Of a stretch of DNA of 28,741 bases, positions 358 to 27,869 are shown piece by piece (within the stretch, counting starts at the first letter, position 1; every line of letters begins with the position of its first letter). The position numbers were made by a program, and so were the translations under genes. This stretch comes from a virus. The stretch spans positions 1 through 28,741 of the IMG/VR virus record IMGVR_UViG_3300047476_001635. The stretch is one strand, 5' to 3'. Under the pieces are notes generated by a model. It was not told where the DNA came from, did no database searches, and saw nothing but the letters and a program-made list of their open reading frames with translations.

Positions 358-1008
358 CTACTTCGTATATACGTGTGCTGGGCTCATGTATCTTGTGCCA
401 GATATAATTGGCTTTACCTCATGAATAAATGGCTCTTGAGATGGGAACATGATTAGGCTTCCTGCCTGTGGCTTTATTGTTATATTATGATTTGGAAAAC
501 TTATCTCCCCGCCCTCATAATCATCATTAATATATGCAACTAAAGAAAAAGCTAAGTCTTTATTCCCATCTTGACCATCAAAATGTGGGCCCATAGACTG
601 TCCCTGATTCCATGCTTTAATGGTTACCTGATCTAAATTTAGATTATATCTATTCTTATCTAAATTTCTAGATGCCAAATATCTATCTGTGCACATTTCA
701 AACGCCATTAATAAACTGTTTGCAATATACAAAGTTCTTTTATCTACAAAATCTGATCCTGTAGAAATTTTTAGAGCGCTTTTATCAATTACTTTTGTTC
801 TGCCATATACAAGGCTATTGTCATTGCTAGCAGTCCAGTTTTCCCATTTAGATATTCTAGAATAAGACTCTGGATAATTATCAATATCTTCAATAAAGCC
901 TGGCAAATACTCTGGAAAACTTAATGCATTTTCCCAATACCAAATTTCTGGCGCAAGTGGCTTTAAGACAAACATTTGAAATTGTTTGAATTCTACATTA
1001 TTGTCCAT
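358..1008 (-). CDS. 2-oxoglutarate/Fe(II) oxygenase, prolyl 4-hydroxylase-like (copy 1)
   Basis: A 217-residue double-stranded beta-helix dioxygenase. The iron ligands are readable: HxD at H142/D144 (PHFDGQ) and the distal His at H196 (FIHEVKP), with an Arg about ten residues later (GTRYMSP) in the place of the 2-oxoglutarate anchor. The signature AYINDDYEGGEISFPNH matches the P4H-like family, whose members hydroxylate using O2 and 2-oxoglutarate. The ATG at 1008 was chosen because it follows the upstream stop by one base (TAATATG) and has GGAAG about nine bases before it; a GTG reaching to 1047 would overlap the upstream gene. It is the last gene of the five-oxygenase operon. The fold is fairly sure; the substrate is unknown, with virion proteins one possibility. 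Confidence 0.88.
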   Translation of the reverse strand: MDNNVEFKQFQMFVLKPLAPEIWYWENALSFPEYLPGFIEDIDNYPESYSRISKWENWTASNDNSLVYGRTKVIDKSALKISTGSDFVDKRTLYIANSLLMAFEMCTDRYLASRNLDKNRYNLNLDQVTIKAWNQGQSMGPHFDGQDGNKDLAFSLVAYINDDYEGGEISFPNHNITIKPQAGSLIMFPSQEPFIHEVKPIISGTRYMSPAHVYTK

Positions 1009-1009
1009 A

Positions 1010-1762
1010 TTAAGCTTCCACTTCAGTAGCGGGATATTGTTCACCACGAGATGTAATTCTTAATCCCTTATTTCTAATTTCTTCCCATTCCGCAGCTTCT
1101 TTTTTCTGGTAAGCTCTTACTTCAGCTAGTTCCTCTGCCCACTTGTCTCTGACTTCCTGTGGATAGTCTGATTCTTCTCTGTCATCCCAGAATGAACCCA
1201 ATGTGTAGCGTACTGCTTTTTTAACAGTAGTTACTTCGTGCATATTGTCAAAACCACCAGCAAAGGTTACCATGGTGCCAGTTTTTGGTACTATGGTAAG
1301 CCCATGCCTAAAGTTTAAGACTCCATCTTCAAAATCATCATTTAAATAAATAAATGTGGCATATCGGCTTCTAGTAAATGCTCCAGATGTGCCGTCGTTA
1401 TCTGTATTGTCTGAATGCATATTTGCAAATGCTCCTGGTGCCCATCTTTGTGAGTGCCAACTTATCTGAGACATTTGCTCTGGATTCTTGCCAGCCATTT
1501 CTGCTGTTGCGTCAATAACTCTCTGTCTTAAAACCTGAAAAAAATCTCCTGGCAGTCCGCATGCAATTGTATCTGGATCATTTACTTCTGGCATTCCAGA
1601 AGAATATGACTCATAAAATGAAATTGGCATCCACTTTAACTGCTCTTTATCCATTTTAATTGCTAAGACATCAATAATTGATTTGCATTCTTCTGCAGTC
1701 AAGAAATTGTCATACTGAACAATGTCTGGCTTGTGTCTAGTAATAATCATGTCTCTTTCCAT
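1010..1762 (-). CDS. 2-oxoglutarate/Fe(II) oxygenase, prolyl 4-hydroxylase-like (copy 2)
   Basis: A 250-residue oxygenase with HxD at H116/D118 (NMHSDN), distal His H175 (NMHEVTT) and a following Arg (VRYTLGSFW). The usual NDDYEGGEL motif appears as NDDFEDGVLNF. A charged Glu/Lys/Arg-rich tail of about 50 residues (AEELAEVRAYQKKEAAEWEE) follows the catalytic domain, probably helical, and is shared only loosely with copy 3. The start at 1762 follows the upstream stop by one base in the same TAATATG arrangement as the next gene; ATG at 1750 with GGAAAG before it is a real alternative, and a TTG at 1813 was rejected. Catalytic competence looks intact. The substrate is unknown. Confidence 0.87.
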   Translation of the reverse strand: MERDMIITRHKPDIVQYDNFLTAEECKSIIDVLAIKMDKEQLKWMPISFYESYSSGMPEVNDPDTIACGLPGDFFQVLRQRVIDATAEMAGKNPEQMSQISWHSQRWAPGAFANMHSDNTDNDGTSGAFTRSRYATFIYLNDDFEDGVLNFRHGLTIVPKTGTMVTFAGGFDNMHEVTTVKKAVRYTLGSFWDDREESDYPQEVRDKWAEELAEVRAYQKKEAAEWEEIRNKGLRITSRGEQYPATEVEA

Positions 1763-1763
1763 A

Positions 1764-2615
1764 TTAGTATGTCCCATCTGGAATTGCTGCATCCATATTT
1801 TTTTCGCTACCAAACTGCTTCTTTATATGATCTTCATAAGATACTACTACGCCATCATTGAAATAAATCATATTTCTCTTGTCTTCATTTTCAATTCTTT
1901 CTTGCTCCATCTTAGCCCATCTATATGCACCAAATTTTCTTTGGTTCGCAAGCCATTCTTCTGTTCCATTATGAGGTGTCATTATAAAGTTTCTTACGAA
2001 AAACTTTTCATTTGTGTTAATTGTTTTAACTCCATGATAATAAGGCTGAGTAGAAGGAAATACCAAAATGTCACCAGCCTTTGGCTTATGATTAATAAAT
2101 TTGCCATCTACATAAAATTCAATATCTCCACCATCGTAGTCATCATTTATATACATTGTGCATGTAATAAAGAACTTGTCTCCAGGCATGTCTCTCTGTG
2201 AAGTTATGTGATCTGTATGGTACTGCATTGTAAGCTTAGTTTTAAGGTTATCAATTCCAGCTTTATATTTAGAATAAGAGCATCCACTAAAATGCCAGCC
2301 TTCTGGCAACTCAATGTTATGTCTTGCAACATAATCTAAAATTACCTTATTGTATGCTGCTTCTACTTCTTCAACAAATTCTTTTTCTTTTAAGAACATT
2401 GGGTCAGATAATACATCTGAAGGAACTTCTCTGATATCCTTCTTTTGTGTATATGTGCCAAAATGAGCCCATGGGTCCCATGTCTTTAATAGATACTTAC
2501 CCTCTGAAGTTTTTTCAGACTTGTTCATTGTTTCATAAAGATCTGCTGGGTTCTTTAATACATTTCTATAAACATCAATCTTTGGGTATAGCTCTATATA
2601 ATTTAGTTCGCTCAT
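1764..2615 (-). CDS. 2-oxoglutarate/Fe(II) oxygenase, prolyl 4-hydroxylase-like (copy 3)
   Basis: A 283-residue protein with HxD at H133/D135 (QYHTDH), distal His H194 (YYHGVKT) and the family motif MYINDDYDGGDIEFY. After the core comes a C-terminal region of about 70 residues rich in charged and aromatic residues (GAYRWAKMEQERIENEDKRN), which could be a partner- or substrate-binding extension. The N-terminal region (ELYPKIDVYRNVLKNPADLY) resembles the opening of copy 5 (ELFPGVWVYRDVIKKDLDVI), so the two may come from an internal duplication. It overlaps copy 4 by four bases (ATGA), a sign of translational coupling. The substrate cannot be inferred. Confidence 0.88.
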   Translation of the reverse strand: MSELNYIELYPKIDVYRNVLKNPADLYETMNKSEKTSEGKYLLKTWDPWAHFGTYTQKKDIREVPSDVLSDPMFLKEKEFVEEVEAAYNKVILDYVARHNIELPEGWHFSGCSYSKYKAGIDNLKTKLTMQYHTDHITSQRDMPGDKFFITCTMYINDDYDGGDIEFYVDGKFINHKPKAGDILVFPSTQPYYHGVKTINTNEKFFVRNFIMTPHNGTEEWLANQRKFGAYRWAKMEQERIENEDKRNMIYFNDGVVVSYEDHIKKQFGSEKNMDAAIPDGTY

Positions 2616-3289
2616 GGCTGTCTTTCTCCTGTGTGCTTATGTATCGTCCAAAAGAATGGCGATGTAAATCTATTTCCAGCTGTTACTGGACGGACTCCAT
2701 GTGTATAGTACATGTCGCCTGGGAAAAAATATGCTGCTCCTGCAACTGGCTGGAACTCAATTCCATGTTGTGGGAAGTATAATTCTCCACCCTCATAGTC
2801 GTCATTAAAATAAAATAGTCCAGCTAAATCGTACCATGGGAAATCATTTGCTCTTCCCTTTTCTGGTCCAGAATGGAACTCTTTATCTGCATGAGGTTCT
2901 TGTCTTGCTCCAACTGGCCATCTAACTATTGCTGGCCCAGTTTCTTTTGCATCAACTTTAAAAAATGCATCTACCTCTATCTTTAATCTTGCAATCATGC
3001 TGTAAATAAGATCAAGGATACTTGGATCTGATGCCATCAATGAGTTATATGTGCAAACTCTATCTTCCCAAACTGTGTGATCATACAAAACTAATCCGTC
3101 TTCGTCTCTGTGTGTTTCTGTGATATCCCATATTTTATTATTTAGCGCAAAATCCATAAGACGCTTGCGTTCTTCGACAGTTAGAAAGTCTCTAATCTCG
3201 ACAATATTGTCTATTGAGTCACCAAAAAATCCAGAGGGGGTAATAGATTTTGGTAGCTGATCTTTGGTCCATTCATTTGCTAGCTTCAT
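2612..3289 (-). CDS. 2-oxoglutarate/Fe(II) oxygenase, prolyl 4-hydroxylase-like (copy 4)
   Basis: A 225-residue protein. The metal triad is H133/D135 (EPHADKE) and H197 (YTHGVRP), with Arg in GNRFTSPF as the likely co-substrate contact. It carries the hallmark FYFNDDYEGGELYFPQHG. Its length is that of a minimal catalytic domain with a short N-terminal cap (DFLTVEERKRLMDFA, typical of the entry helix in this family). It is coupled on both sides: its end overlaps copy 3 by four bases, and its ATG at 3289 overlaps the end of the DUF6065-like gene. This is a clean, probably active P4H-like enzyme; whether it acts on proteins, peptides or free metabolites is not shown. Confidence 0.88.
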   Translation of the reverse strand: MKLANEWTKDQLPKSITPSGFFGDSIDNIVEIRDFLTVEERKRLMDFALNNKIWDITETHRDEDGLVLYDHTVWEDRVCTYNSLMASDPSILDLIYSMIARLKIEVDAFFKVDAKETGPAIVRWPVGARQEPHADKEFHSGPEKGRANDFPWYDLAGLFYFNDDYEGGELYFPQHGIEFQPVAGAAYFFPGDMYYTHGVRPVTAGNRFTSPFFWTIHKHTGERQP

Positions 3290-4011
3290 TTATCCATTAT
3301 ATCATTTCTATTATTTAATTCATTGACTTTAAGTCTTATAGCCTTTACCTGATGTTTGCCAATGCTATTCTTAAGATGATCAACCGCATCTCTATAAAAA
3401 TTAGACCATGTGGCAGACCTATTTAAGCTGTATACCACATTTGAGTATTCCGTTGAATCAAATTTAGGCTGAGGCAAGCTTTCAATAGGCTCAAAGTTTA
3501 TTTCTGAGTTTTGAAGACCACCGAGGTCTATTGGCATTATTGCAATTATTGGTGTCCCAGCCTTAATTGTTATAACTTCATTTGGCTTAGTTATCATCCA
3601 TGCACATGGCAGCTCACCAGGAAAAAATGATGTGCTTACAAGTGTTGTGAAAGGTACTGCACCATCAATAAACAAGTTTGGGACTGGCATAGACATAAGC
3701 GTAACACTTTCATCTGTAGTAAACATTAGCCCAGTATTAAAGCTTATTGTTCCATTTGCTCTTCCAGAATATGCATATTTTTCTCCAGAAAGTATTTTAA
3801 CATGATCTGGAGTGCTATCATGAATTCCATCCCAAATAAAAGATATATCTTCTGGGAAAGATATTCCCCAACCTAACTGATTAGTAAGACCAACTGGGAA
3901 GCATTTATAAGCATGGGCTTCATATGTATTATCCATCCACTCTCTTTTAATAGAAAGAGGCAAGACTTCTCCATATCCCTCCCTTATCTTATAAGCTTTT
4001 ATTTTATGCAT
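3286..4011 (-). CDS. DUF6065-like protein
   Basis: A 241-residue protein without iron-binding HxD. The order of short motifs (FPVGLTNQLGWGISFPED, then FNTGLMFTT, then SFFPGELPCAWMITKPNEVI and KAGTPIIAIMPI) resembles what I remember of DUF6065, a family of unknown function often seen near oxygenases and in phages. The predicted fold is mostly beta. It sits second in the oxygenase operon, overlapping the first gene by eight bases and the next by four, so it is made together with the hydroxylases and may act as a partner or on the same substrate. ATG at 4011 (GGTAAG upstream) was preferred to a TTG at 4044. The family assignment is from memory and should be tested by profile search. Confidence 0.7.
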   Translation of the reverse strand: MHKIKAYKIREGYGEVLPLSIKREWMDNTYEAHAYKCFPVGLTNQLGWGISFPEDISFIWDGIHDSTPDHVKILSGEKYAYSGRANGTISFNTGLMFTTDESVTLMSMPVPNLFIDGAVPFTTLVSTSFFPGELPCAWMITKPNEVITIKAGTPIIAIMPIDLGGLQNSEINFEPIESLPQPKFDSTEYSNVVYSLNRSATWSNFYRDAVDHLKNSIGKHQVKAIRLKVNELNNRNDIMDK

Positions 4012-4717
4012 AAGAATTCTTACCAGTTTTTGCGTCTTCTTCAACCCACCTACTTCTCATCTCAAAGAACTCTGGCTTGTGTGCATGATCATTATAATCA
4101 AGCATTGTAACAATTGAAAATTTCATTCCATCTTCTACTGGCATCGCTCTATGTGAAAAGAGATAAGTTGATGGGAAAATATATAGGTCTCCAGCCTTTG
4201 GCTTAATATCTAATCCAATCTTTGGGAAGAAAAGATTACCTCCTTCATAATCATCATTTACATATGCTACCAAAGATACGGTTGCGCTATATGAGAATCC
4301 ATGATCAGCATGCTCTTGGAAATGTTGACCCTTGCCATATCGGATACAGTTCATAACTTCCCAATAGTTCATTTTTACATTAAATCTATTGCAATAATCT
4401 TTAACTGCGTCATCTTGGGCTTTTCTCAAATCTGACCATAAATTGTTTACTAATTTTTGTGTTTCATTAGCTGGAGCAGGGATATCTCCAATTTTTATAT
4501 CTTCACAGTCTCTATATGAAGGGCGTCTTTCGCTGTATCCAACAAAACCAAATGTCCAGCTATATCTGGAATCACCCTCTTTAACAGCAGACTCGCCTAT
4601 CTCATTCAAACGATTGATTACATCTAGATCTTTTTTAATTACGTCCCTATACACCCACACGCCTGGGAAAAGCTCTTCTTTTGAAGAAAATCCATATTGA
4701 TCATTTATAGTAGTCAT
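4004..4717 (-). CDS. 2-oxoglutarate/Fe(II) oxygenase, prolyl 4-hydroxylase-like (copy 5, operon leader)
   Basis: A 237-residue oxygenase and the first gene of the operon. Iron ligands: H136/D138 (QEHADHG) and H189 (FSHRAMP). The core motif is AYVNDDYEGGNLFFPKIG, and after it comes KPKAGDLYIFPS as in the other copies. A C-terminal helix rich in charge (EMRSRWVEEDAKTG) follows. The distal His is followed by Arg-Ala-Met rather than the Gly-Val usual in the neighbours, a small departure that may alter the pocket. The ATG at 4717 lies six bases after TACAAT, so the message is probably leaderless; a GTG at 4780 would place the start inside the terminator hairpin and was rejected. Confidence 0.88.
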   Translation of the reverse strand: MTTINDQYGFSSKEELFPGVWVYRDVIKKDLDVINRLNEIGESAVKEGDSRYSWTFGFVGYSERRPSYRDCEDIKIGDIPAPANETQKLVNNLWSDLRKAQDDAVKDYCNRFNVKMNYWEVMNCIRYGKGQHFQEHADHGFSYSATVSLVAYVNDDYEGGNLFFPKIGLDIKPKAGDLYIFPSTYLFSHRAMPVEDGMKFSIVTMLDYNDHAHKPEFFEMRSRWVEEDAKTGKNSYA

Positions 4718-4796: not shown

Positions 4797-6035
4797 TTAA
4801 GCTATTGCTACGAAATTATTGACTATAAACCATGGCTGTGGAGACGTTCTAACGTCATACACTGTAGATTCTGAGTCATCTTTTTCAATTGATGTTACAG
4901 GTATTTCTGAAATTAATCCATCTTTATCAACCTTGATAATGATTTCTCCAATTTCAATATCTCCAGCATTTTTGTAAGTAATTCCTTCTGGTGTCTTTAC
5001 AAATAGTGGCTGTGTAACTGAGTAGTCTTTACCTCTATAGTTGAATCCAATTAATGTTGAAGTCTTCTCTGTGACAGAAAGAACTTCTGTATTTACTAGT
5101 TCAACAACTTCAGGAAGCAATCCTGATGTCTTATTAGAAGATAGTGACTCAAGGCTGACGTGCTTGTCAGAGATAGTTATAACAGTGTCTCCAACCTTGA
5201 TATCTTTTGCCTTTACCCAACCAGCTGTAGTAAATATTACTGCATCTGGTGCAAGACACTTACCCTTAAATGCTGGTGGTGCAAAGAAGCTTGGCGGTGC
5301 GAAGAATCCTGGCGGTGCGAAGAAGCTTGGCGGTGCGAAGAATCCTGGCGGTGCGAAGAAGCTTGGCGGTGCGAAGAATCCTGGCGGTGCGAAGAAGCTT
5401 GGCGGGAAGAATGGTGGGAAGAATGGTGGGAAGAACGGAGCCTGTGTTGTAACAGTAGCTGTATTCGCTGAAGCTGCTGATCTTCCATTTGCATTATCCG
5501 CATAAACATTATAATACTGTGATGTATTAGCTGTGTCTGGAATTGTTGCAGATGTAGATGAAGTATTTGCGCTTGTACCATCATTTCCATAAACATAATA
5601 GTTTGTAATTGCCTTACCACCGTTTGAAGGAGCTGACCATGAAACAGTGTTCTGATTTACTCCAGCGGTAGCTGTTGCTGATGGTGCATCTGGAACAGTA
5701 GTAACTGTAACTGCTGGTGCAGCTACAGAATTACTGTTGTTATCTAGATACGCATCATATGATGAAACTTGATATGTTCTTGAAGAGTTGGAAGCAATTC
5801 CTGTAATTGTTGCTGTATTGGTACCAAATGGTATTGTTGCAACAACTGTAGAACCTTCATAAACTTTATATCCAGTTGGTGTATTACCGTCAACTGGAGC
5901 TGTCCATGAAACTACAACTGCCCCGTCGTTAAAGGCTCTATTTGTACCAACATCAGATGCTGTGACACCTGTTACTGGATTTGGGCCAGTAAAGTTATCT
6001 TGGGCTGAGGCTTTTCTACCTATATTTTTTGACAT
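4797..6035 (-). CDS. Fibronectin-III/Pro-Phe repeat/Hint domain adhesin (412 aa)
   Basis: Domain order: a short N-terminus; two fibronectin type III-like domains (about 17-110 and 112-200; VSWTAPVDGNTPTGYKVYEG and VSWSAPSNGGKAITNYYVYG); three FFPP units and seven FFAPP(S/G) units (about 203-256); and a 153-residue Hint (intein/hedgehog-like) domain from C260 to the end. Hint block A is clear (CLAPDAVIFTTAGWVKAKDI KVGD as two runs). Block B (YSVTQPLFVKT) lacks the usual TxxH histidine, and the protein ends in FVAIA instead of the His-Asn of a splicing intein. Protein splicing is therefore not expected; cleavage at C260 or transfer to a nucleophile remains possible. RBS: AGGAG six bases before ATG. 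Probably a virion surface protein; paralogous in its C-terminus to the 1071-residue protein at 12289-15504. Confidence 0.82.
   Translation of the reverse strand: MSKNIGRKASAQDNFTGPNPVTGVTASDVGTNRAFNDGAVVVSWTAPVDGNTPTGYKVYEGSTVVATIPFGTNTATITGIASNSSRTYQVSSYDAYLDNNSNSVAAPAVTVTTVPDAPSATATAGVNQNTVSWSAPSNGGKAITNYYVYGNDGTSANTSSTSATIPDTANTSQYYNVYADNANGRSAASANTATVTTQAPFFPPFFPPFFPPSFFAPPGFFAPPSFFAPPGFFAPPSFFAPPGFFAPPSFFAPPAFKGKCLAPDAVIFTTAGWVKAKDIKVGDTVITISDKHVSLESLSSNKTSGLLPEVVELVNTEVLSVTEKTSTLIGFNYRGKDYSVTQPLFVKTPEGITYKNAGDIEIGEIIIKVDKDGLISEIPVTSIEKDDSESTVYDVRTSPQPWFIVNNFVAIA
5275..5440 (-). repeat. Tandem 18-bp (36-bp) and 12-bp coding repeats, Phe-Phe-Ala-Pro-Pro
   Basis: Plus-strand units alternate GGCGGTGCGAAGAAGCTT and GGCGGTGCGAAGAATCCT, so the higher-order unit is 36 bp. 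They encode FFAPPS and FFAPPG on the minus strand, seven FFAPP in total, followed by three 12-bp units encoding FFPP. The near identity of the copies at the DNA level points to recent expansion, and copy number may vary between relatives. Confidence 0.9.
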
Positions 6036-11074: not shown

Positions 11075-11776
11075 CTAATTACTAAATAACTTGTTTCTAT
11101 ACTCAGTATCTTCCCAAAAAAGAGAGACAGTATACCTAATACCAGATTCTACTTTCTTTACTCCATGCAAACTATGTTCATCTCCCTTTAGGCATATTAG
11201 AGTGCCAATTTCTGGCTTTATGTAAAAGTTGTGATCTGGAAAGTATAGTTCTCCGCCTTCATAGTCATCGTTTAGGTAAATAAGAGATGAGTAATGTTTT
11301 GTTTGAAACATTTGGCCGAATGTATCTAAAAATGATTTTGGTATATTATTTTTTGCAAGCTTAATGTAGTCGTGGCCAGGCTCTTCTTGGTAAAAATAAT
11401 CTAGGTGTGGAGTTTGTTCTCTTCCAGGGCGCCATCTGTTAATTAGGTATTGCTCTTCTCTTAATGAAGTAACTCCATATTTTTCTTCTATATGTGTTCT
11501 AATTTTGCCAGCCAAAAATTGATAATAGTATGGGTTGAGACCATATCTTTCTGCAAATCCTTGGTTAGTAATATTTATACACATACCATCCCATTGAGAA
11601 ACTGAATACTGAAGGTTACCAGCAACATTATCTTTTTTAGGATAATTCAGATTATAATCAAGTGCCCAAAGCTCTTCTGAAAAATTTTTAACTTTTAATA
11701 TATTATCGCATTCTTCTTTAGAAAGAAAATTTTTTACAATACGAATATTAGGATTTTGAAGATCAATAATCTCCAT
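11075..11776 (-). CDS. 2-oxoglutarate/Fe(II) oxygenase, prolyl 4-hydroxylase-like (copy 6)
   Basis: A 233-residue oxygenase embedded among fibre genes rather than in the main oxygenase operon. Iron ligands: H124/D126 (TPHLDYF) and H204 (SLHGVKK), with Arg following in GIRYTVSLFW. Core motif IYLNDDYEGGELYFPDHN. An insert of about 30 residues rich in Lys and Phe (KLAKNNIPKSFLDTFGQMFQ) lies between the HxD motif and the core strand, longer than in the other copies. It sits five bases after a small Cys-rich protein gene. There is no strong ribosome-binding site before ATG 11776, so translation may depend on coupling. Its position among fibres is the strongest hint that a virion protein is the substrate, but this is inference. 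Confidence 0.88.
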   Translation of the reverse strand: MEIIDLQNPNIRIVKNFLSKEECDNILKVKNFSEELWALDYNLNYPKKDNVAGNLQYSVSQWDGMCINITNQGFAERYGLNPYYYQFLAGKIRTHIEEKYGVTSLREEQYLINRWRPGREQTPHLDYFYQEEPGHDYIKLAKNNIPKSFLDTFGQMFQTKHYSSLIYLNDDYEGGELYFPDHNFYIKPEIGTLICLKGDEHSLHGVKKVESGIRYTVSLFWEDTEYRNKLFSN

Positions 11777-12288: not shown

Positions 12289-15200
12289 TTAGGCTATGGC
12301 TATAAGTCCATTAACTATAAACCAAGGTTGTGGGGACGTTCTAACATCATAAACTAGAGATTCAAATTCATCTACCTCAATTGACTCTACTAGTATTTCT
12401 GATACTTGGCCTTCTGGGCTTATGCTCAATATAGTATCTCCTATATTAATGTTTCCAGATTCTTTATATTCAATTAAATCTATATTCTTTATAAATATAG
12501 GCTGGGTCACTGAATAGTTCTTGCCCATTCCGTTAAATCCAATTAATTTTGAACTCTTTTCTGTAACAGAAATAACTTCTGCATTAACAAGAGAAACCTG
12601 GTCTGGGAGCAATAAAGATGTCTTACTATTTGATACTGAGTTTATATCAATATCTGAGTTTGCTATAGTAATTATTTGATCTCCAACCTTAATATCTTTT
12701 GCCTTTAGGCTGCCGCTTGATGTCAAGATAAGAGAATTTGGAGCTAGGCACTTGCCCTTAAATGCTGGTGGTGCGAAGAAGCTTGGTGGTGCGAAGAAGC
12801 TTGGTGGTGCGAAGAAGCTTGGTGGTGCGAAGAAGCTTGGTGGTGCGAACAGTGATGCCTCTCCAGTACAAGGTCCGTATATATTTGCACAGCCTATTGG
12901 TGTAATACAATAAGTTTGAGTGCCACCATTTCCACAAGATTGTGTTCCAGAACCATATGGGCAACTATTACAATCTGTAGTCGGCGGAGTTGCAGGCGGT
13001 GTTGCAGGCGGAGTTGCAGGCGGAGTTGCAGGAGCGGTTGATTGACAATCTGGATAACCACTAGTTGAGCAACTTCTAGAATAACCAGAGCCAGAACCAG
13101 AATTATTAGTTGATGATGTTGTATATCCGCAATTTCCTACTCCTCCTCCAGAATAACTTTCAGTACAATACCATGTAGTTGATGATGGAACACAGCCAGT
13201 ATCTGTAACAATATTAGCGCAGGATCCTGGCGTATAGCAAACATAAGTGTTCATTGTTCCAGAAGTGCAAATACTTGTTGAAACAGATCTACTGCTAGTA
13301 TAGCTGCTTGATCCACAAGCCTGGCACTCTGCAGCACTACAGTCTATACCAGAACCACATGTTGCTGCAGGTGGTGTTGATGGCGGAGTTGCAGGCGGTG
13401 TTGAGGTACAGCATGATCCCGAAGCTGGGGTAGGGTAAGAAGTTTGAGAACAGCTTACGCATGGATCAGTATTATGCTCATTTATAGTTGACATATATTG
13501 AGTTACTGTACAGTCTGAATTTCTCATAGAACAGTACCATGAAGCTGTTGGTGGAGTTGCAGGCGGAGTTGCTGGTGGGGTTGCGGGAGCACAAGCACCC
13601 TGTGTTGCAGCTGCTAATGCTTCTGCAGAAGTGGATCTATAATATGTCCAAGTTACAGTTCTTGCTCCAGATACAGATGTGTCTGCAGGCATACTTGATG
13701 CAGTAAATGGACCACTTACAGATGGCTGAGAAACGCATGTATCATTTTGGAAATCTGCAGTTGCTGTTCCAGCATAATATGTTACAGATGTTGATGGTCC
13801 AGTAGATAAGCAGTCTGGGTATGGACCTCCAGCAATACAAGTTCTAGAATAACCAGACCCTTGGGCAGAATTATTAGTAGAAGATGTTGTGTAGCCACAG
13901 TTTCCGACTCCACCACCATTATAGCTTTCAGTACAATACCATGTTGTGCCAGCTGGGACACAGCCAGTATCAGTTGTTATAACGTCACAAATGCCTGGGG
14001 TATAACATGTACTGGTATTCATATACCCAGAAGCGCAAATACTTGTTGAAACAGATCTAGTTCCTGTTGTTGTGCTAACACAAGACTGGCATGCTGCTGT
14101 AGCGCATGCTGATGGGGAATCACATACTGCAGTTGCTGCAACTGCAGTAATTGAATTGCTGCTAAATGCTTTATCTGTCATTCTTAAGTCAGTTGTTAAA
14201 ACTTGTACAGAAGATGTTATTTGTGTATTATCGTAATCCGTTGTTGTGCCCAAATCAAGTGTAGAGCCTAACCCAAACCATATGGCTGACCCATTGGAAT
14301 ACCATTCAATAGCATAAGAGTATATTGATGACTCATTGCTCCATGTTCCATTGGTTGAGCTAAATGTACGTCCGTCTCTAGAAATAGTTGGCAATGTTTG
14401 ATTTACTGGAAGAGGGCTTTCTGGATATGTAATAGTTAATGCTGGTGTTGATGTCCATGATGTTTCTGTAAATCTAGGTGCTGTTCCAGTTACAGTTACA
14501 GTAAATGATCCATAAGTTGTTCCTCCTGCACCTAATTGATTAATGTCAAAGGATGTTGCGGATGGATCTCCTAGGAAAGAACTGGCGTAAACCTCTCCAT
14601 TATTATATATAGCCCACCCAGTTTGCTGGATTAAAGTATTAGACCAACTTAGCCTGCCGCCCCAAGAAAATGATGTCATGGTTGCTACTACGCTAGCTTT
14701 AGTTGGCTTTAAATCCATTACAGATGCATTTTTCCCGTATCCAGTAATTGTTTGTCCAGAAACGTTTGCTGTGTTTTTAGGATTAATAAGAATTCCAAGT
14801 GTTCCAGAAGCAGATCCAGTATCTATTGTAAATTTATGAGCTGTTCCAGTAACACTGTATACTCCCTTTGTGGTATCACTGTTATTATTCATGCTAGACA
14901 CTTCTGTAAATGCCACTTCTGGACCCTGATACTGAATATAATAATCATCGGCGCCCCTTACTCTTTGCCAAGTAAGTTCTACAACTCCATTAGAAACAAC
15001 ATTAACACTTATATTTGTTTGTACAGCTGAAGCAATTATTGGGCTTGCCAGAGTATATACGTCTTCTGTATTTTTACCAGAAGAATTTGTTGCTGTAACT
15101 TTACATCTTACTTTATATCCAACATACTTGAGTGCAGATGCAATTGGATACTGCTCCCATAAGTCTTCATTTAAGTATAATGTATTTTGTGTAGCATTAG

Positions 15201-15504
15201 GAATGTCAGTCCAGCTAGAAGAGTTGCCTCCAGCTTTTTGCCATTGATATTCAAAGGTTGTTGGAGAGTTTTCCCATGTTCCAGTAGATACAGCTATGGT
15301 TTCTTGTGCTGAGTAATAAAATGCATTTCCCTGAATAGATAAAGCTGGCAATTCTGTGTTTTTAGGAGCTAGATTTAATAAACTTTTCCATTCTGATCCA
15401 TCCCATACATACGCCGCTTTAGATTCATTCCAGGTAGAACCATCGTGAATCTGTATTTTTTTTAAAGGATTCCAGCTGGAACCGTCAAAAATATTTAGCG
15501 GCAT
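12289..15504 (-). CDS. Giant Cys-rich/Pro-repeat/Hint domain adhesin (1071 aa)
   Basis: Domain order: three DGSxWN-type motifs (about 7-45); several Ig/fibronectin-like beta domains (about 50-450; FEYQWQKAGGNSSSW, VELTWQRVRGADDYYIQYQG); a Cys-rich module (about 460-568), a second spacer with PATPP repeats (about 650-715), a second copy of the Cys-rich module (about 715-821), more PATPP repeats; one LFAPP and four FFAPP units (about 884-912); and a 153-residue Hint domain from C919 to the end. Hint block A (CLAPNSLILTSSG) is intact; the block B His is missing (YSVTQPIFIK) and the end is LIAIA, so splicing is not expected. RBS GGAG six bases upstream of the ATG. A secreted-looking, disulfide-rich architecture points to a virion adhesin. 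It has the same Hint tail as the 412-residue protein. Confidence 0.82.
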   Translation of the reverse strand: MPLNIFDGSSWNPLKKIQIHDGSTWNESKAAYVWDGSEWKSLLNLAPKNTELPALSIQGNAFYYSAQETIAVSTGTWENSPTTFEYQWQKAGGNSSSWTDIPNATQNTLYLNEDLWEQYPIASALKYVGYKVRCKVTATNSSGKNTEDVYTLASPIIASAVQTNISVNVVSNGVVELTWQRVRGADDYYIQYQGPEVAFTEVSSMNNNSDTTKGVYSVTGTAHKFTIDTGSASGTLGILINPKNTANVSGQTITGYGKNASVMDLKPTKASVVATMTSFSWGGRLSWSNTLIQQTGWAIYNNGEVYASSFLGDPSATSFDINQLGAGGTTYGSFTVTVTGTAPRFTETSWTSTPALTITYPESPLPVNQTLPTISRDGRTFSSTNGTWSNESSIYSYAIEWYSNGSAIWFGLGSTLDLGTTTDYDNTQITSSVQVLTTDLRMTDKAFSSNSITAVAATAVCDSPSACATAACQSCVSTTTGTRSVSTSICASGYMNTSTCYTPGICDVITTDTGCVPAGTTWYCTESYNGGGVGNCGYTTSSTNNSAQGSGYSRTCIAGGPYPDCLSTGPSTSVTYYAGTATADFQNDTCVSQPSVSGPFTASSMPADTSVSGARTVTWTYYRSTSAEALAAATQGACAPATPPATPPATPPTASWYCSMRNSDCTVTQYMSTINEHNTDPCVSCSQTSYPTPASGSCCTSTPPATPPSTPPAATCGSGIDCSAAECQACGSSSYTSSRSVSTSICTSGTMNTYVCYTPGSCANIVTDTGCVPSSTTWYCTESYSGGGVGNCGYTTSSTNNSGSGSGYSRSCSTSGYPDCQSTAPATPPATPPATPPATPPTTDCNSCPYGSGTQSCGNGGTQTYCITPIGCANIYGPCTGEASLFAPPSFFAPPSFFAPPSFFAPPSFFAPPAFKGKCLAPNSLILTSSGSLKAKDIKVGDQIITIANSDIDINSVSNSKTSLLLPDQVSLVNAEVISVTEKSSKLIGFNGMGKNYSVTQPIFIKNIDLIEYKESGNINIGDTILSISPEGQVSEILVESIEVDEFESLVYDVRTSPQPWFIVNGLIAIA
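12767..12853 (-). repeat. Tandem 18-bp coding repeats, Phe-Phe-Ala-Pro-Pro-Ser
   Basis: Four perfect copies of GGTGGTGCGAAGAAGCTT on the plus strand (12767-12838) and a partial fifth, encoding FFAPPS on the minus strand. The unit is the same as at 5275-5402 apart from GGT/GGC choices, so the two loci are related by duplication or exchange. Confidence 0.92.
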
Positions 15505-19850: not shown

Positions 19851-19879
19851 ATTCTACCATTAGGCAGATATATCTACAA
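19851..19879 (-). promoter_or_regulatory. Possible promoter of the holin candidate gene
   Basis: TGG-TAGAAT (hexamer 19851-19856) on the minus strand, with TTGTAG 17 bases upstream (19874-19879), overlapping the end of the reductase gene. The leader of about 50 bases contains a small TTGGTT/AACCAA hairpin (19830-19843) and GGAG before the ATG. Confidence 0.5.
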
Positions 19880-21794
19880 GCTCACAGTTCCCATCTGAGC
19901 TGCACGCAAGGGTGGCATTTGTAGAGGTTCCGTCTTCTGTCTCATAAAAAGAAAGATCTTCCCATCGAATATTCTTTGGCATCTTAGCAACTAGGTCCTC
20001 ATATTCCTCTTTGCTAATTTCTTGATATGGAGCCTGCTTGTATGTGTGCTCTGAATGAGGAAGGAATGAAATTCCAGAAACCTCATCAAAATTCTTATAA
20101 ACCCAAGCTCCTACTTCCATCCATTCGTCTTCTTTTACAGAAACTGTAATGGAAGGCTTATGCTCACACCAAGCACGTTGATAAACTAGCCAGATATTAA
20201 GGTGATCAATTGCTGTTAAATCATTTCTAACAATTGCTCCTTCTGGAGCCTTAACTGGAAATGAAAATACATATGTCTCATTTGGCTTCATTACGTCGTC
20301 TTCGACGGGAATACCAACTTCCTTTAAAAATACTGAAATTGGATCATTTTTTGAACCACGCACAGTACGAACATAGTATTGAGAATGCCAAGGATGCATT
20401 CCTGAAGATACCCCGACCAATTGAGATACTGTTCCAGAAGGCTTTACACATGTAATGGCTGCAGACTCAGGAATCCCAATTTTCCCTGCCTCTTCTTTGT
20501 TTACTTCTCTTGCCTTATCACGCAAAGTCATCAGGAATGCCTCAAGTGAAACTAGGTCTTCTTTTCCAGACATAAACTTATGACCAAATTGGCCAGTAAG
20601 TGAAACTCCAAGAAGTCTTTCTTCTTCTGTATTATCTTTCCAAATTTTACGAAGATACTTGAAGTCTGTAAGTGTTGACTGCCATGTTCCAAGGATTGTT
20701 GCTAGCTCTACTTTTCTTTGTATGTCTTTCTTGCTATCATTTTCACGAAGTACTACTTCTGAAAGGTTGCAAAATTGATACGGACGCAAAATAATTTCAG
20801 AGCAAGGATTGGTTCCGTAATGAATCTCTGGATCTCTGCGACCAAACTTAGCTGCCTGTGCTTGTGCTGCTGCAACATTGTAAATGCCACGCTCTCCAGA
20901 CTTTGAGTCATAAAGAGATTTCCATTCTGCAATAAACTGCTCCATGTCTGGCTTACGAGAATATGCAACTGAGTTATTAGACAAAGCTCTTTGTGGACTT
21001 GCTTCCCACCAGTTACCAGCTTTAGCTTGTGCCATCTCAATGTCATTAATGTTAGACAAGGAGATCATTGCTGATCGTCTTACTCCGCCAACAACAACAA
21101 CCTCACCAATCTTGCACATAATGTCATGACATTCAATTGGCTTTAGGTTTCTTCCAGCTGCATTTTTAAACTTTGCAATAGTAAAGTCAAACAGGTTAAC
21201 GAGTGGTTGTGGGCCAGATGATCTTCCACCCATTGTCTTTAATCTTGCTCCTGCAGGACGGACCTTAGATACGTCTATTGCAGGAATATGTCCTGTCCAA
21301 AGAAGTGCAAGAAGTTCACGATAAGCTTTAGCCCATCCCTGTTTAGAATCTTCTACGACAATAACAGTGTCTGACTTTTCAAGTTTTTCTGGGACGGCAG
21401 GAAGTTTATTGATGTATTTGTATTCAACAGAGAATCCAACACCTGTTCCGCACATTAGTACATACATTGTTTCGTCAAAAGAACGTGGTGAATCTACTGG
21501 CAAGAAAGCGCAGTTATATCCTGCTACGTTATCTCTTTCAAGTGCGGCACCAGATGTCATTACAGATCTCATTGATGGCATTACATTTCGTTCGAACACA
21601 AACTTTTTTAATTCCGCAACTAGCTTTTCATCTGGAATATAATTATGATTTTTTTCTAAGTGGTCTGTCATAAAGGAAAAATATCTATCTACTGTTTCTC
21701 CCCATGTTTCTCTACGACCTTCTGCTTCTACCCATTTAGCATATCTTGATAGTGCAATAAAGTTTTCATAAGGGTTTTCAATAGTATTTTTCAT
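19860..21794 (-). CDS. nrdJ: Class II (adenosylcobalamin-dependent) ribonucleotide reductase
   Basis: A 644-residue reductase that turns ribonucleotides into deoxyribonucleotides for phage DNA synthesis. Landmarks: C95 in YNCAFLP and C342 in FCNL (the redox pair), C331 with E333 in NPCSEIIL (thiyl radical Cys and general base), the CGTGVGFSVE glycine-rich segment, CVKPSGTVSQL, and the C-terminal C631/C637 pair (CSSDGNC) that re-reduces the active site. This layout matches the monomeric RTPR-type class II enzymes, which need adenosylcobalamin and no separate radical subunit. It is about 95 residues shorter than the Lactobacillus enzyme. Start: ATG at 21794 with AAGG about seven bases before; a TTG at 21857 was rejected. 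The host or environment must provide cobalamin. Confidence 0.93.
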   Translation of the reverse strand: MKNTIENPYENFIALSRYAKWVEAEGRRETWGETVDRYFSFMTDHLEKNHNYIPDEKLVAELKKFVFERNVMPSMRSVMTSGAALERDNVAGYNCAFLPVDSPRSFDETMYVLMCGTGVGFSVEYKYINKLPAVPEKLEKSDTVIVVEDSKQGWAKAYRELLALLWTGHIPAIDVSKVRPAGARLKTMGGRSSGPQPLVNLFDFTIAKFKNAAGRNLKPIECHDIMCKIGEVVVVGGVRRSAMISLSNINDIEMAQAKAGNWWEASPQRALSNNSVAYSRKPDMEQFIAEWKSLYDSKSGERGIYNVAAAQAQAAKFGRRDPEIHYGTNPCSEIILRPYQFCNLSEVVLRENDSKKDIQRKVELATILGTWQSTLTDFKYLRKIWKDNTEEERLLGVSLTGQFGHKFMSGKEDLVSLEAFLMTLRDKAREVNKEEAGKIGIPESAAITCVKPSGTVSQLVGVSSGMHPWHSQYYVRTVRGSKNDPISVFLKEVGIPVEDDVMKPNETYVFSFPVKAPEGAIVRNDLTAIDHLNIWLVYQRAWCEHKPSITVSVKEDEWMEVGAWVYKNFDEVSGISFLPHSEHTYKQAPYQEISKEEYEDLVAKMPKNIRWEDLSFYETEDGTSTNATLACSSDGNCELVDISA

Positions 21795-21847
21795 TTGTCG
21801 CCTTTTCTTCCGCCTAACGGATTGATTGATTTTTTGAATGAAGTCTA

Positions 21848-21856
21848 AGTGTATCA
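21848..21856 (-). promoter_or_regulatory. Possible extended -10 for nrdJ
   Basis: TGA-TACACT on the minus strand about 54 bases upstream of the reductase ATG, in the 302-base gap between divergent genes. No clear -35 is seen. Plausible only. Confidence 0.4.
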
Positions 21857-21857
21857 A

Positions 21858-23292: not shown

Positions 23293-23430
23293 ATGGCTAG
23301 AGATCATTTTGCAAAATTTATGGCAAGCCCGCAGTTTAATCACGAATGCGATGGTTCATGCAAAGTGCAATCACATCAAAAAAAAGAATATATTATAGAA
23401 AAATTACTTAAAAGGATTGGTAAAAAATAA
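23293..23430 (+). CDS. Small basic protein (45 aa)
   Basis: MARDHFAKFMASPQFNHECD is followed by GSCKVQSHQKKEYIIEKL and a basic end. One CxxxxC-like pair with a nearby His (FNHECDGSCKV) might bind metal. The stop overlaps the start of the oxygenase behind it (TAATG), so the two are coupled. The ATG was chosen because a near-consensus -10 lies nine bases upstream; a TTG at 23221 would run through the terminator hairpin. Role unknown; perhaps linked to the oxygenase. Confidence 0.65.
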   Translation: MARDHFAKFMASPQFNHECDGSCKVQSHQKKEYIIEKLLKRIGKK

Positions 23431-24284
23431 TGTTTTACGACAGAGAAGATTGTATTAAAGCATCTTTTTTCCCAGATGATTATGGGACACAAAGCGGAGT
23501 TTTTATATTTAAGGGCTTCTTTACAGATGAAGAATGTAAGACTGTAGAAGATGAGCTAAGAGACTATGATATGAGTGACAAGTACGGTGACACTCTAATC
23601 AGCTGGTATTCAAATAAAGTTAGTCCACCACTTAAAGCAATCCACCCACTCTGGGAAAAGGCAAGCGAGCTTTTGTACCCAGAATACGTAATGCACCCAC
23701 AGGGCAACGTTTTGATAATAACACCAGAAATGAATGAAGGAATGTTTACTCATTCAGATTCTCCTGGAAAGGGAGAATGCCACAGATTATCTCAGGTTGA
23801 CGTATGGAAGACATGCTGCGAACTTGACTTTGGCTTAGTAGGATATTTTGGAGACTTTGAAGGCGGAGAAATATTTTACGTAAACATTAATAAAGACGGA
23901 ACAAGAAAAGATGCTGTACGTGAAGAAGACCGCTTAACAATAAAGCCTGAAAGAGGAGATCTTGTAATACACGGAGCATTTGCACCACATGCACATGGTG
24001 TAGAGCCAGTTACATCTGGAAGAAGATATGCATTCTCAAACTTTGTGTTAAAGGCAGAAGATAATCCAGGAACATTTTATAACTATAAAACACCAGAGTA
24101 TTATGAGCAAATTAAAGATAAAGATACACTCAGCCTAAAAGACTTTGTTAACATATGGATGAGACCACTAAAGGAAAACCCACAGTTTACTAAAGAAAGA
24201 ATTAGAGAGTATCAGGCATCTGGACTAGAAGGACCAGAGCTCTCAGAAAAATTTATGGGTGAGTTTAAAGAGCATAAAGACTAA
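23430..24284 (+). CDS. 2-oxoglutarate/Fe(II) oxygenase, prolyl 4-hydroxylase-like (copy 7)
   Basis: A 284-residue oxygenase and the only plus-strand copy. Iron ligands: H108/D110 (FTHSDSPGKG) and H189 (HAHGVEP), with Arg in GRRYAFSNF. The core motif is the divergent GYFGDFEGGEIFYVNINKDG, where the NDDY of the other copies is replaced by GDFE. A helical C-terminal region of about 70 residues (YYEQIKDKDTLSLKDFVNIW) follows the fold. Seven of its 13 Ile codons are ATA, which suits the tRNA-Ile(UAU) gene in this window. It converges with the membrane protein gene behind it (overlapping stops). Probably active on a different substrate from the minus-strand set. Confidence 0.87.
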   Translation: MFYDREDCIKASFFPDDYGTQSGVFIFKGFFTDEECKTVEDELRDYDMSDKYGDTLISWYSNKVSPPLKAIHPLWEKASELLYPEYVMHPQGNVLIITPEMNEGMFTHSDSPGKGECHRLSQVDVWKTCCELDFGLVGYFGDFEGGEIFYVNINKDGTRKDAVREEDRLTIKPERGDLVIHGAFAPHAHGVEPVTSGRRYAFSNFVLKAEDNPGTFYNYKTPEYYEQIKDKDTLSLKDFVNIWMRPLKENPQFTKERIREYQASGLEGPELSEKFMGEFKEHKD

Positions 24285-24571
24285 GCAATAAAATGTTTTA
24301 ATATTGCGGCAGTTGCCAAGCAACACCATATCATATTAAACACTATTATTGTAGGTAAAGTTTTTCTAGTAGATGTCCAAATCAAAGACATGCTAGATAC
24401 TAAAGCAAATATATAAAGCCACCACCACTGCTTGCCAAAAAGAAGTCCTGGAACAATAATTGTAGCTTTAGTCATAAAAGATATAAGCTCTATTGTATTT
24501 ACTAGATTCCAATATGATCTATGACCAAACTTTGATAAAACATACTTTATCTTATTCACTAAAGCCACCAT
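24281..24571 (-). CDS. Small membrane protein (96 aa)
   Basis: Three likely membrane segments: about 27-45 (IELISFMTKATIIVPGLLFG), 46-65 (WWWLYIFALVSSMSLIW) and 71-93 (LPTIIVFNMIWCCLATAAIL), with a basic N-terminus (NKIKYVLSKFGHRSYW). It overlaps the end of the halogenase gene by 20 bases, so it is expressed from the same message. No family is recognised. It could anchor or export the halogenase product, or be unrelated. Confidence 0.65.
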   Translation of the reverse strand: MVALVNKIKYVLSKFGHRSYWNLVNTIELISFMTKATIIVPGLLFGKQWWWLYIFALVSSMSLIWTSTRKTLPTIIVFNMIWCCLATAAILKHFIA

Positions 24572-26060
24572 TTAATTTTAAAAAGTCATAATGCTTTAGT
24601 GTTTTATGATATATGGATTTTTTTATAGAATTATTTTCTTTTATTTCTTTGCTAAATTTATTATGGTGTTTTTCAGAGAATGACTTTATTTTATCTATAT
24701 CCATTATTCCATTACCATAAGCAATTGCGTAATAACTATACTCTGGCCATATTGTCCACATGTTTTCTCTATCTTCAACTTCTCCAAGATTTAATATGAG
24801 GTCGTGCACATGCTTTATTCTATCTGGCATTTTATTTTTGGTTGTAAAATTTTCCCAGAAATCAGTATTTGTTTTATTTGTCATGTAATGTAGGTATATA
24901 AAGTCTTTTATGGACTCAGACTCATCAAAACATTTTTGGTTAATTGTTTCTCTATATTCACCAGGGTTAAATGTCTCAACCTCTGTATTGAATACTCTAT
25001 TGAGAGCCCCAGCTGTTTGCTGAAGTGATGTAGCTTCAAGTGGCTCTACAAAACCAGCAGCAAGTCCAATTGCCATGCAGTTTCCAATCCACACATTTTT
25101 AAAAATTCCAGGATCAAAACTAAACTCTTTGACAAATGTTACGCCTCCATATTTTTCTGTAATTTCTTTTCTTACAGCCTCATTTGAAATAATTCTTGAG
25201 TCATATACATATCCACACCCATATCTATGCTGTAATGGGATCTTCCATATCCAACCATAATCTGTAGCAATTGATTCAGTATATGGCTCTAGCTCTTTTT
25301 CATTATCAAGTGGCATTAAAAATGCTTGTGCTGCATTGGCTGGGAGGCTTTCAGAATAACTTATCCATTCTCCTCCAAGCTTACCTCCAATAAAGTACCT
25401 TGCAAATCCAGTGGCATCTACAACAAAGTCGGTAGATATAATTGAGCCATCTTCTAAAGTTATTGACTTTATATTAACTCCATTTACATCAGCGTCTACT
25501 ACCCTAGAGTCTATATGAGATACATTTCTTGATAATGCTTTTTCTTTTAAAAACTTTGCAAGCAATGGTGCATCCCAGTGAAAAGCGTAGGCACCATATT
25601 GCTTTTGGTAATCTCCCACTGTTTCAAACGGAACACGGTTTTCATTAGATACCATAGTCATAAAACAAAAATCTTCTTCTGGTATGTCATTAGCATAAGA
25701 AAAAACTCTAGTGTTCGGGAATCCTGGATCGTCAAACTCAATCCTGTTAAGTCCATCCATGTTGTGTGGCCAGAAGTTAAACGCATGCATGTAGCTCCCA
25801 CCATCTTGTGACCAATTTGTGAACTTTATCCCATTTTTAATTGTCGACTTAGTATTAGTAACCAGATCTTCTAGTGTTATATCTAGATAGTTAAAAAGGT
25901 TGACGAGCATAGGCACAGTGCCTTCGCCTGCACCCAGTATGCCTATTTTAGTACTCTCTATAACAACTACGTTCTCGTCAGGGAATCTTTTTTGAGCAAA
26001 AAGAGCAGATAGCCAGCCAGCGGTTCCACCACCAACTATAACTATGTTCTTTTTTGTCAT
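24552..26060 (-). CDS. Flavin-dependent halogenase (tryptophan halogenase family)
   Basis: A 502-residue FADH2-dependent halogenase, which makes HOCl/HOBr/HOI-type species and transfers halogen to an electron-rich substrate. Diagnostic sites: G10-x-G-x-x-G15 with W16 (GGGTAGW) for FAD, the catalytic Lys at K75 (TIKNGIKFTNW, the PrnA K79 position), the family motif WxWxIP at W270-P275 (WIWKIP), and E339-E342 (EPLEAT) in the region of the PrnA catalytic Glu. The length fits the family. A flavin reductase would be needed and is not in this window. The ATG at 26060 lies six bases after TACAAT (leaderless); an ATG 37 codons upstream was rejected. Viral halogenases are known from cyanophages (VirX1); the substrate here is unknown. 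Confidence 0.9.
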   Translation of the reverse strand: MTKKNIVIVGGGTAGWLSALFAQKRFPDENVVVIESTKIGILGAGEGTVPMLVNLFNYLDITLEDLVTNTKSTIKNGIKFTNWSQDGGSYMHAFNFWPHNMDGLNRIEFDDPGFPNTRVFSYANDIPEEDFCFMTMVSNENRVPFETVGDYQKQYGAYAFHWDAPLLAKFLKEKALSRNVSHIDSRVVDADVNGVNIKSITLEDGSIISTDFVVDATGFARYFIGGKLGGEWISYSESLPANAAQAFLMPLDNEKELEPYTESIATDYGWIWKIPLQHRYGCGYVYDSRIISNEAVRKEITEKYGGVTFVKEFSFDPGIFKNVWIGNCMAIGLAAGFVEPLEATSLQQTAGALNRVFNTEVETFNPGEYRETINQKCFDESESIKDFIYLHYMTNKTNTDFWENFTTKNKMPDRIKHVHDLILNLGEVEDRENMWTIWPEYSYYAIAYGNGIMDIDKIKSFSEKHHNKFSKEIKENNSIKKSIYHKTLKHYDFLKLNGGFSE

Positions 26061-26066
26061 AAATCT

Positions 26067-26095
26067 ATTGTACCTTTCGATAAATTCAGAGTCAT
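26067..26095 (-). promoter_or_regulatory. Leaderless promoter of the halogenase gene
   Basis: ATGACT (26090-26095), 17 bases, TACAAT (26067-26072), six bases, ATG at 26060 (minus strand). Confidence 0.7.
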
Positions 26096-26360
26096 ATAGT
26101 GCGAAAAAAGTGCGCCGCCGAGAGAAGGACATTCTAGTCAACTGGAATATATGGATCCATATGCGATCCATTTACATAGAAATACCCCTGATAAAGCCTC
26201 TAGAGGCTCTCTAAGGCTCTTTGAGCCTTTCTGCCTACCCAAGGGCGGGAGAGGGCCAAAAAGTGCCTTTACGAGAATATTCTAGAGTTTGCCAGAACCT
26301 AATAGCAAGAAGTATAGACTGATAAGGAACAAGGACGCTTTGACGAAAAATATATATAGC
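26096..26360. other. Non-coding interval with palindromes and two hairpins
   Basis: About 265 bases with no supportable gene, richer in G+C in places (GCGCCGCCG, GGGCGGGAGAGGG) than its surroundings. It holds the palindromes ATATGGATCCATAT (26149-26162), AGCCTCTAGAGGCT (26195-26208) and AGAATATTCT (about 26275-26284), and the hairpin AAGGCTC-TTT-GAGCCTT (26213-26229). The pair of hairpins may end transcription from the small membrane peptide gene. Other functions (protein binding, RNA gene, replication site) cannot be told apart. Confidence 0.5.
26195..26229 (-). terminator. Possible double hairpin terminator
   Basis: On the minus strand AAGGCTC-AAA-GAGCCTT is followed by AGCCTCTAGAGGCT and TTTAT. 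Stems are short (7 and 5-6 bp) and the T-run is weak. Confidence 0.4.
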
Positions 26361-26571: not shown

Positions 26572-27213
26572 ATGAACTACACAATTGAGCCATGGAAAGA
26601 TAAGCAACTTGATCCAGAATTTTTAGAAATTCTTACAGAGCAAGCTGAGCTTAATCTAGGACTTGTAGGCGAACACGATATTAAATCTAAAGAACCATGG
26701 GAAAGATATTACGTGCTATGGAGTGCACTAAAAGAAGTTAAAGATCTTCCAGGTAATTTTGTACAATGTGGTGTCTATATGGGAGACCAAGCCTATTTTA
26801 TGGCAGAAGCGTCCGATAAGACAGTATACCTGTTTGATTCATTTGAAGGTGCAAAAGATCTTGGAGAATTTGATAACGAATACTATATAGAGAATCCTTA
26901 TAAGTGCACTGTAGAAGATTGCCAATCAAGATTATCTCCATTTAACAATGTATCAATTAATGTTGGTCCCGTTCCCGCCAATTTTGAAAAAGTAGAACAG
27001 ATTTCACTTCTATATGTAGATGTTAATCTGTATGAGCCTACAAAGATTTCAATTGAAGAGCTATGGGATAAGATTGTCGACAATGGTCTACTTATGGTAG
27101 ATACACATGACAATTATTCTACTGGAGCAACAAAAGCAGTTGTAGAGTTTGCCGTAGAAAAGAATTTATCTATTCAGACTCTTCCTACTGGTATTGCAGT
27201 AATTACTAAATAG
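26572..27213 (+). CDS. TylF/MycF-type S-adenosylmethionine-dependent methyltransferase
   Basis: A 213-residue Rossmann-fold methyltransferase of the TylF (PF05711) kind, members of which O-methylate sugars or related hydroxyls. Motif I reads GNFVQCGVYMGDQ (61-73), the second strand YLFDSFEG (86-93), and the metal/active-site region LLYVDVNLYEPTK (D150) and GLLMVDTHDNYSTGATKAV (D177, D180). The usual DDY is VDTHDNY, a small deviation that may alter metal binding. The likely role is methylation of a hydroxyl on a glycan or small molecule, possibly one made by a neighbour. It ends head-on with the SGNH-like gene (8-base overlap). No ribosome-binding site is needed if leaderless. Confidence 0.85.
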   Translation: MNYTIEPWKDKQLDPEFLEILTEQAELNLGLVGEHDIKSKEPWERYYVLWSALKEVKDLPGNFVQCGVYMGDQAYFMAEASDKTVYLFDSFEGAKDLGEFDNEYYIENPYKCTVEDCQSRLSPFNNVSINVGPVPANFEKVEQISLLYVDVNLYEPTKISIEELWDKIVDNGLLMVDTHDNYSTGATKAVVEFAVEKNLSIQTLPTGIAVITK

Positions 27214-27868: not shown

Positions 27869-27869
27869 T

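Follow-up and report, generated by a model that had tools for sequence, protein, structure and literature searches.

In plant extensin, prolyl hydroxylases (P4H and P3H) act on a long proline-rich repeat to give a stabilised rod. Likewise, in collagen several prolyl hydroxylases act on a long proline-rich repeat, stabilising the rod (PMC4295552). Amongst virus-encoded enzymes, the P4H of PBCV-1 (vCPH; PDB 5c5t) is sequence-specific on proline-containing peptides; this enzyme, the one viral P4H that is well studied, is active and has no known role, and hydroxyproline was not found in PBCV-1 virions (PMC7019647). Marine cyanophages carry 1-5 2OG-Fe(II) oxygenase genes (PHROG 61), and one, S-SCSM1, has 24 (PMC3037559, PMC9602691); an earlier note on the DNA studied here, which held that phages often carry one or two, therefore understated the range. 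A PHD-like fold in marine phages has also been described by Phold (PMC12774648), and P4H genes in Baltic viruses have been called cryptic (PMC9301287).

The stretch analysed here (the window) is the complete IMG/VR record IMGVR_UViG_3300047476_001635, a fragment of 28,741 bases, whose minus strand encodes at 358-4717 five P4H-like 2OG-Fe(II) oxygenases and one DUF6065 protein, head to tail (Table 1). The domain, and its presence in many copies per genome, are shared with the cyanophages; however, in the cyanophage records we viewed the 1-3 oxygenase genes have no fixed location and adjoin uvsX/primase or tail genes, whereas five of those in the window form one operon, and the best cyanophage matches listed are at most ~35% identical. 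The five-enzyme operon also differs from the chlorovirus type, a small P4H gene found in all chloroviruses, for which the available part of the report mentions no five-enzyme operon, DUF6065 protein or linked repeat protein (PMC7019647).

Table 1. Position of the oxygenase operon, the repeat tracts and other genes in the window.
Feature	Position	Strand	Score or remark
ox1 oxygenase (HFD, H, R)	358..1008	-	PF13640 46 bits
ox2 oxygenase (HSD, H, R)	1010..1762	-	PF13640 35.7 bits
ox3 oxygenase (HTD, H, K)	1764..2615	-	PF13640 36 bits
ox4, most conserved oxygenase (HAD, H, R)	2612..3289	-	PF13640 33 bits
DUF6065 protein, predicted dUTPase-like fold	3286..4011 (ORF 3286-4044)	-	PF19541 ~108 bits
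ox5, P4H-like oxygenase that opens the operon (HAD, H, K)	4004..4717	-	PF13640 51.4 bits
FN3 tail-type protein with Phe-Pro tract and Hint/intein-like C-terminus; candidate substrate	4797..6035	-	fn3 29.9 bits
Repeat tract FFPPFFPPFFPP(SFFAPPGFFAPP)n	5271..5435	-	within 4797-6035
ox6, extra oxygenase between tail genes	11075..11776	-	PF13640 34 bits
Second FFAPP tract	12763..12849	-	in 1071-aa protein 12289-15504
RNR, Class II-like	19860..21857	-	
ox7, seventh oxygenase, complete ligands	23430..24284	+	PF13640 24.5 bits, Pfam sub-threshold
Tryptophan halogenase	24552..26171	-	341 bits

A profile search of the whole record returned seven PF13640 matches. Six of them, namely the five operon ORFs and ox6, exceed the 27-bit cut-off, and ox7, which falls below it, keeps every catalytic residue; indeed, the HxD motif, the distal His and the R/K 2OG anchor ten residues on are present in all seven copies. 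This bears out the earlier reading of five diverged copies of one fold with complete HxD...H ligands, a DUF6065-like gene as second operon member, and two more oxygenases elsewhere. The same reading had all the operon genes joined by overlaps of at most eight bases: measured from the conserved ATG starts (4717, 4011, 3289, 2615, 1762 and 1008), the junctions are -8, -4, -4, +1 and +1 nt, such that three overlaps stand and the other two pairs of genes simply abut.

Scans of IMG/VR with DUF6065 and ox5 gave more than 100 loci. In ~50 close relatives the order fn3 protein-ox5-DUF6065-ox4-ox3-ox2-ox1-(2-337 gene) is kept on one strand, and this conserved order, taken with low dN/dS, implies that the arrangement is more than chance. 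Median dN/dS against the window was 0.10 for ox1, 0.067 for ox2, 0.084 for ox3, 0.066 for ox4, 0.08 for ox5 and 0.12 for DUF6065, which should be taken as order-of-magnitude values since synonymous sites are near saturation (pS 0.62-0.70). The HxD is unchanged in all 44-56 orthologues of each of ox1-ox5, the distal His and R/K are invariant among the orthologues of ox2, ox4 and ox5 (the copies counted), and ox4 is 77-95% identical in most close relatives. Each of ox1-ox5 is under strong purifying selection, in agreement with the earlier argument that the retained catalytic residues speak against decay.

In the tree, ox2, ox3, ox4, ox5, ox6 and ox7 each form a supported clade, bar a few long-branched, weakly matching rows, with 100/100 for the orthologues of both ox2 and ox3; close orthologues of ox1 group at 98/99, and distant ox1-like genes do not form a single clade. 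The tree gives no clear deep branching order among the copies. From these sequences the copies appear to be old, separate orthologue groups, ox1 less cleanly than the rest, and in a conserved order, rather than the unrelated recent acquisitions that the earlier note had named as its refutation. Recent tandem duplication was likewise ruled out, considering these old clades and the 20-30% pairwise identity of the other copies to ox1. Module-bearing contigs, which belong to a family of freshwater viruses of bacteria, carry 6-12 PF13640 genes; ox6 is sporadic, present in only some relatives, and ox7 lies inside the cluster after ox1 in a sister lineage (L053, L101, L102, L104). Lineage diversity is low: clustering of ox4 yields no more than 9 groups at 70% identity, with 2 at 60%, and most loci come from few lineages.

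Regarding the reaction catalysed, the AF2 model of ox5, the one copy modelled, is confident (pLDDT 91), and the best 50 PDB fold matches listed for it are all prolyl hydroxylases, including PHD2, Pseudomonas putida P4H bound to EF-Tu, an algal P4H, the chlorovirus vCPH and Bacillus anthracis P4H. The B. anthracis enzyme is also the best PDB match of ox5 by sequence profile (E 9e-8), whilst the top match of the ox4 profile is human prolyl 3-hydroxylase 1 (E 1.3e-7), followed by B. anthracis P4H. By sequence, ox1 weakly matches PKHD and P4H enzymes in the PDB, and ox2 and ox3 have no PDB match. The predicted fold and profile of ox5 and the profile of ox4 would fit peptidyl-proline substrates, though this specifies the substrate class weakly, because PF13640 proteins generally find prolyl hydroxylase structures.

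The DUF6065 protein scores 108.5 bits against PF19541 (cut-off 26.6), and its AF2 model is confident (pLDDT 92.8). Its best Foldseek matches are dUTPases (E 4e-4, TMt 0.6-0.7), a distant but significant likeness; however, the protein is ~100 residues longer and 12% identical, no significant match to dUTPases was found by sequence, and the catalytic motif does not look conserved by eye. The segment that aligns by eye with dUTPase motif 3, where dUTPases carry an Asp, is LVSTSFF in the window; most relatives have LISTSFF there. Because this region does not look dUTPase-like by eye, we treat DUF6065 as a binding or assembly partner, probably a non-enzymatic accessory. The gene is duplicated in some relatives. 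Genome scans for DUF6065 by profile and by single protein returned nothing, there was no match in INPHARED, and a literature search of incomplete coverage found no paper on the family. DUF6065 does occur in 26 of 190 alphaproteobacterial genomes, and none of the 24 alphaproteobacterial loci fetched has a module oxygenase within ~1.5 kb, which rules it out as a general oxygenase partner: as far as tested, the pairing is phage-specific.

What, then, could these enzymes act upon? Directly upstream of ox5 lies an ORF with FN3 domains that the earlier note missed, although its suggestion that the copies act on a repetitive substrate now finds support: the encoded protein carries a repeat of (G/S)FFAPP type and is the likely substrate. 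Over 141 such tracts the consensus is GFFAPP, with 34.6% F and 34.1% P. The 1071-aa protein with the second tract also contains PPAT repeats (12988-13023), and is a possible second substrate. In both proteins (4797-6035 and 12289-15504, minus strand), a Hint/intein-like end starts with KGKCLAP right after the tract and is absent in many relatives; in the former, both Intein_splicing and Hint_2 are sub-threshold in Pfam. This domain may cleave or attach the end of the tract by self-processing.

The association between tract and oxygenases holds from whichever side it is approached. An oxygenase-blind scan for DNA encoding FFAPPxFFAPP gave 118 loci, of which 102 hold an oxygenase; where at least 2 kb is present on both flanks, an oxygenase lies within 2 kb in 46 of 48. 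In reverse, amongst DUF6065 loci that extend at least 3.5 kb upstream, a Phe-Pro tract ORF (at least 55% F+P in 40 residues) lies upstream in 91 of 92, and the lone exception ends at 3.5 kb. In bacterial genomes, FFAPP gave 8 matches, mostly antisense or low-complexity frames by eye, with no neighbouring module oxygenase. Relatives were also retrieved by their portal protein, its identity confirmed by PHROG 12. These comprised 15 loci with tract and cluster, 15 with neither, and 5 with the cluster and an upstream region outside the locus; searching whole contigs revealed tracts in 3 of these 5, the other 2 contigs ending at the cluster, and brought the totals to 18 with both and 15 with neither. 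The whole contigs of the 15 negatives yielded no tract and no cluster, the only PF13640 gene in any of them being a single copy in L443, which has no convincing DUF6065. At least 5 joint changes of tract and cluster fall on supported branches of the portal tree, 7 by parsimony, and neither ever changes alone; a sign test on independent pairs gave 5/5 (p = 0.0625, the lowest reachable with 5 pairs).

These distributions bear on the published default for phage 2OG oxygenases, auxiliary metabolism (PMC3037559, PMC9602691), by which, as has been suggested for cyanophages, the enzymes would target host metabolites or the level of 2-oxoglutarate. We consider this improbable here: the cluster belongs to the structural part of the genome, upstream of the portal gene and with the repeat gene as its constant neighbour, no tract-less relative has it, and drawing down 2-oxoglutarate needs no five separately conserved enzymes.

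A collagen-like (Gly-X-Y) tail fibre would be another candidate substrate, considering that known P4Hs act on collagen and that the gene adjoining ox1 downstream (2-337) bears a short GPQGPAG motif. Yet a control scan for collagen repeats (GPAGPQGPAGP) found an oxygenase within 2 kb in 0 of 47 well-flanked loci, and in only 2 of 120 loci overall, one of the same lineage as the window. Moreover, there are tract-less relatives in which long fibres of GPTGPTG and GPSGPSG type occupy the same slot, and these have no oxygenase cluster; two of the cluster-less relatives we inspected have long collagen-like fibres there together with a glycosyltransferase-like gene. We therefore reject the collagen-like neighbour, whose chance of being the substrate seems very slight; what regularly accompanies the oxygenases is the Phe-Pro tract. 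Separately, Synechococcus phage S-CAM7 (L366, 1-5618) has a 2OG oxygenase just after two collagen-like-repeat ORFs and a glycosyltransferase, possibly a parallel tail-modification layout.

Co-inheritance does not in itself prove a substrate relation, because close genes travel as a cassette, and adjacency alone can yield perfect co-inheritance. The oxygenases and the repeat protein might thus move together whilst the enzymes modify another virion protein, the host surface or a host protein, and the P. putida P4H amongst the ox5 fold matches was indeed solved in complex with EF-Tu. We think such hitchhiking unlikely: the association holds where ox4 has been inverted, where other genes have been inserted and where the N-terminal part of the carrier has been replaced, and the slot can keep its other tail genes when the oxygenases are missing. 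One distant lineage has an inverted ox4 and bears its tract on a protein without an FN3 match, and the FFAPP protein, ox4, ox5 and DUF6065 are still adjacent, so that the linkage survives both the inversion and a different carrier N-terminus. In the loci of this lineage (L152, L153, L160, L166, L176, L178, L192 and L194), a short FFAPP protein with another type of N-terminus either faces the inverted ox4 convergently or adjoins it.

Other parts of the window deserve mention. The nearest relatives of its RNR are Streptomyces phage enzymes (65% identity) and a lysis-type gene carries an SLT lysozyme-like domain, for which reasons an actinobacterial host is likely. The tryptophan halogenase, found in 1 of 15 module-bearing relatives, was ruled out as a part of the module and is sporadic cargo. 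Beyond it lie a gene for a TylF-like methyltransferase and two genes without assignment, of which one looks sulfotransferase-like by eye (26572-27213, plus; 27206-28490, minus); these could modify glycans or small molecules.

Taking gene anatomy, predicted fold and co-inheritance together, we infer that the module probably hydroxylates the Phe-Pro repeats, mainly at proline, during tail assembly, and would thus constitute a virion-maturation operon. The tail-type protein would be made with a long, very hydrophobic Phe-Pro tract, upon which the five non-redundant 2OG-Fe(II) oxygenases supplied by the downstream operon would act, hydroxylating mainly prolines at different positions or carbons, and perhaps Phe or small residues. 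Ahead of tail assembly or in its course, hydroxylation would turn the tract into an extended rod that is rigid and soluble, with DUF6065 probably a non-enzymatic partner presenting or protecting the substrate. That PBCV-1 virions lack detected hydroxyproline despite an active P4H counts against such hydroxylation in the virion. The best reading, by analogy, likens the module to collagen or extensin maturation without placing it within the collagen system: a phage supplies the enzymes, from a single operon adjoining the repeat gene, the repeat itself is Phe-Pro (GFFAPP), and the host is bacterial. More tentatively, we posit an assembly line of at least five specialised oxygenases that, with the dUTPase-fold DUF6065 protein as guide, successively hydroxylate the Phe-Pro repeat into a new kind of hydroxylated virion rod. 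If so, this would be, to our knowledge, the first phage-tail pathway dedicated to protein hydroxylation; our literature search, of incomplete coverage, found no paper on hydroxylated phage tails.

Phage 2OG oxygenases are abundant, and prolyl-hydroxylase-like ones are widespread in marine phages without a known substrate. Were our reading true, a part of these abundant phage '2OG oxygenase AMGs' would be recast as virion-maturation enzymes, and many of the genes currently catalogued under auxiliary metabolism may prove to be of this kind. As the genome described here singles out a candidate substrate that is specific, repetitive and easy to detect, the role of viral prolyl hydroxylases becomes testable.
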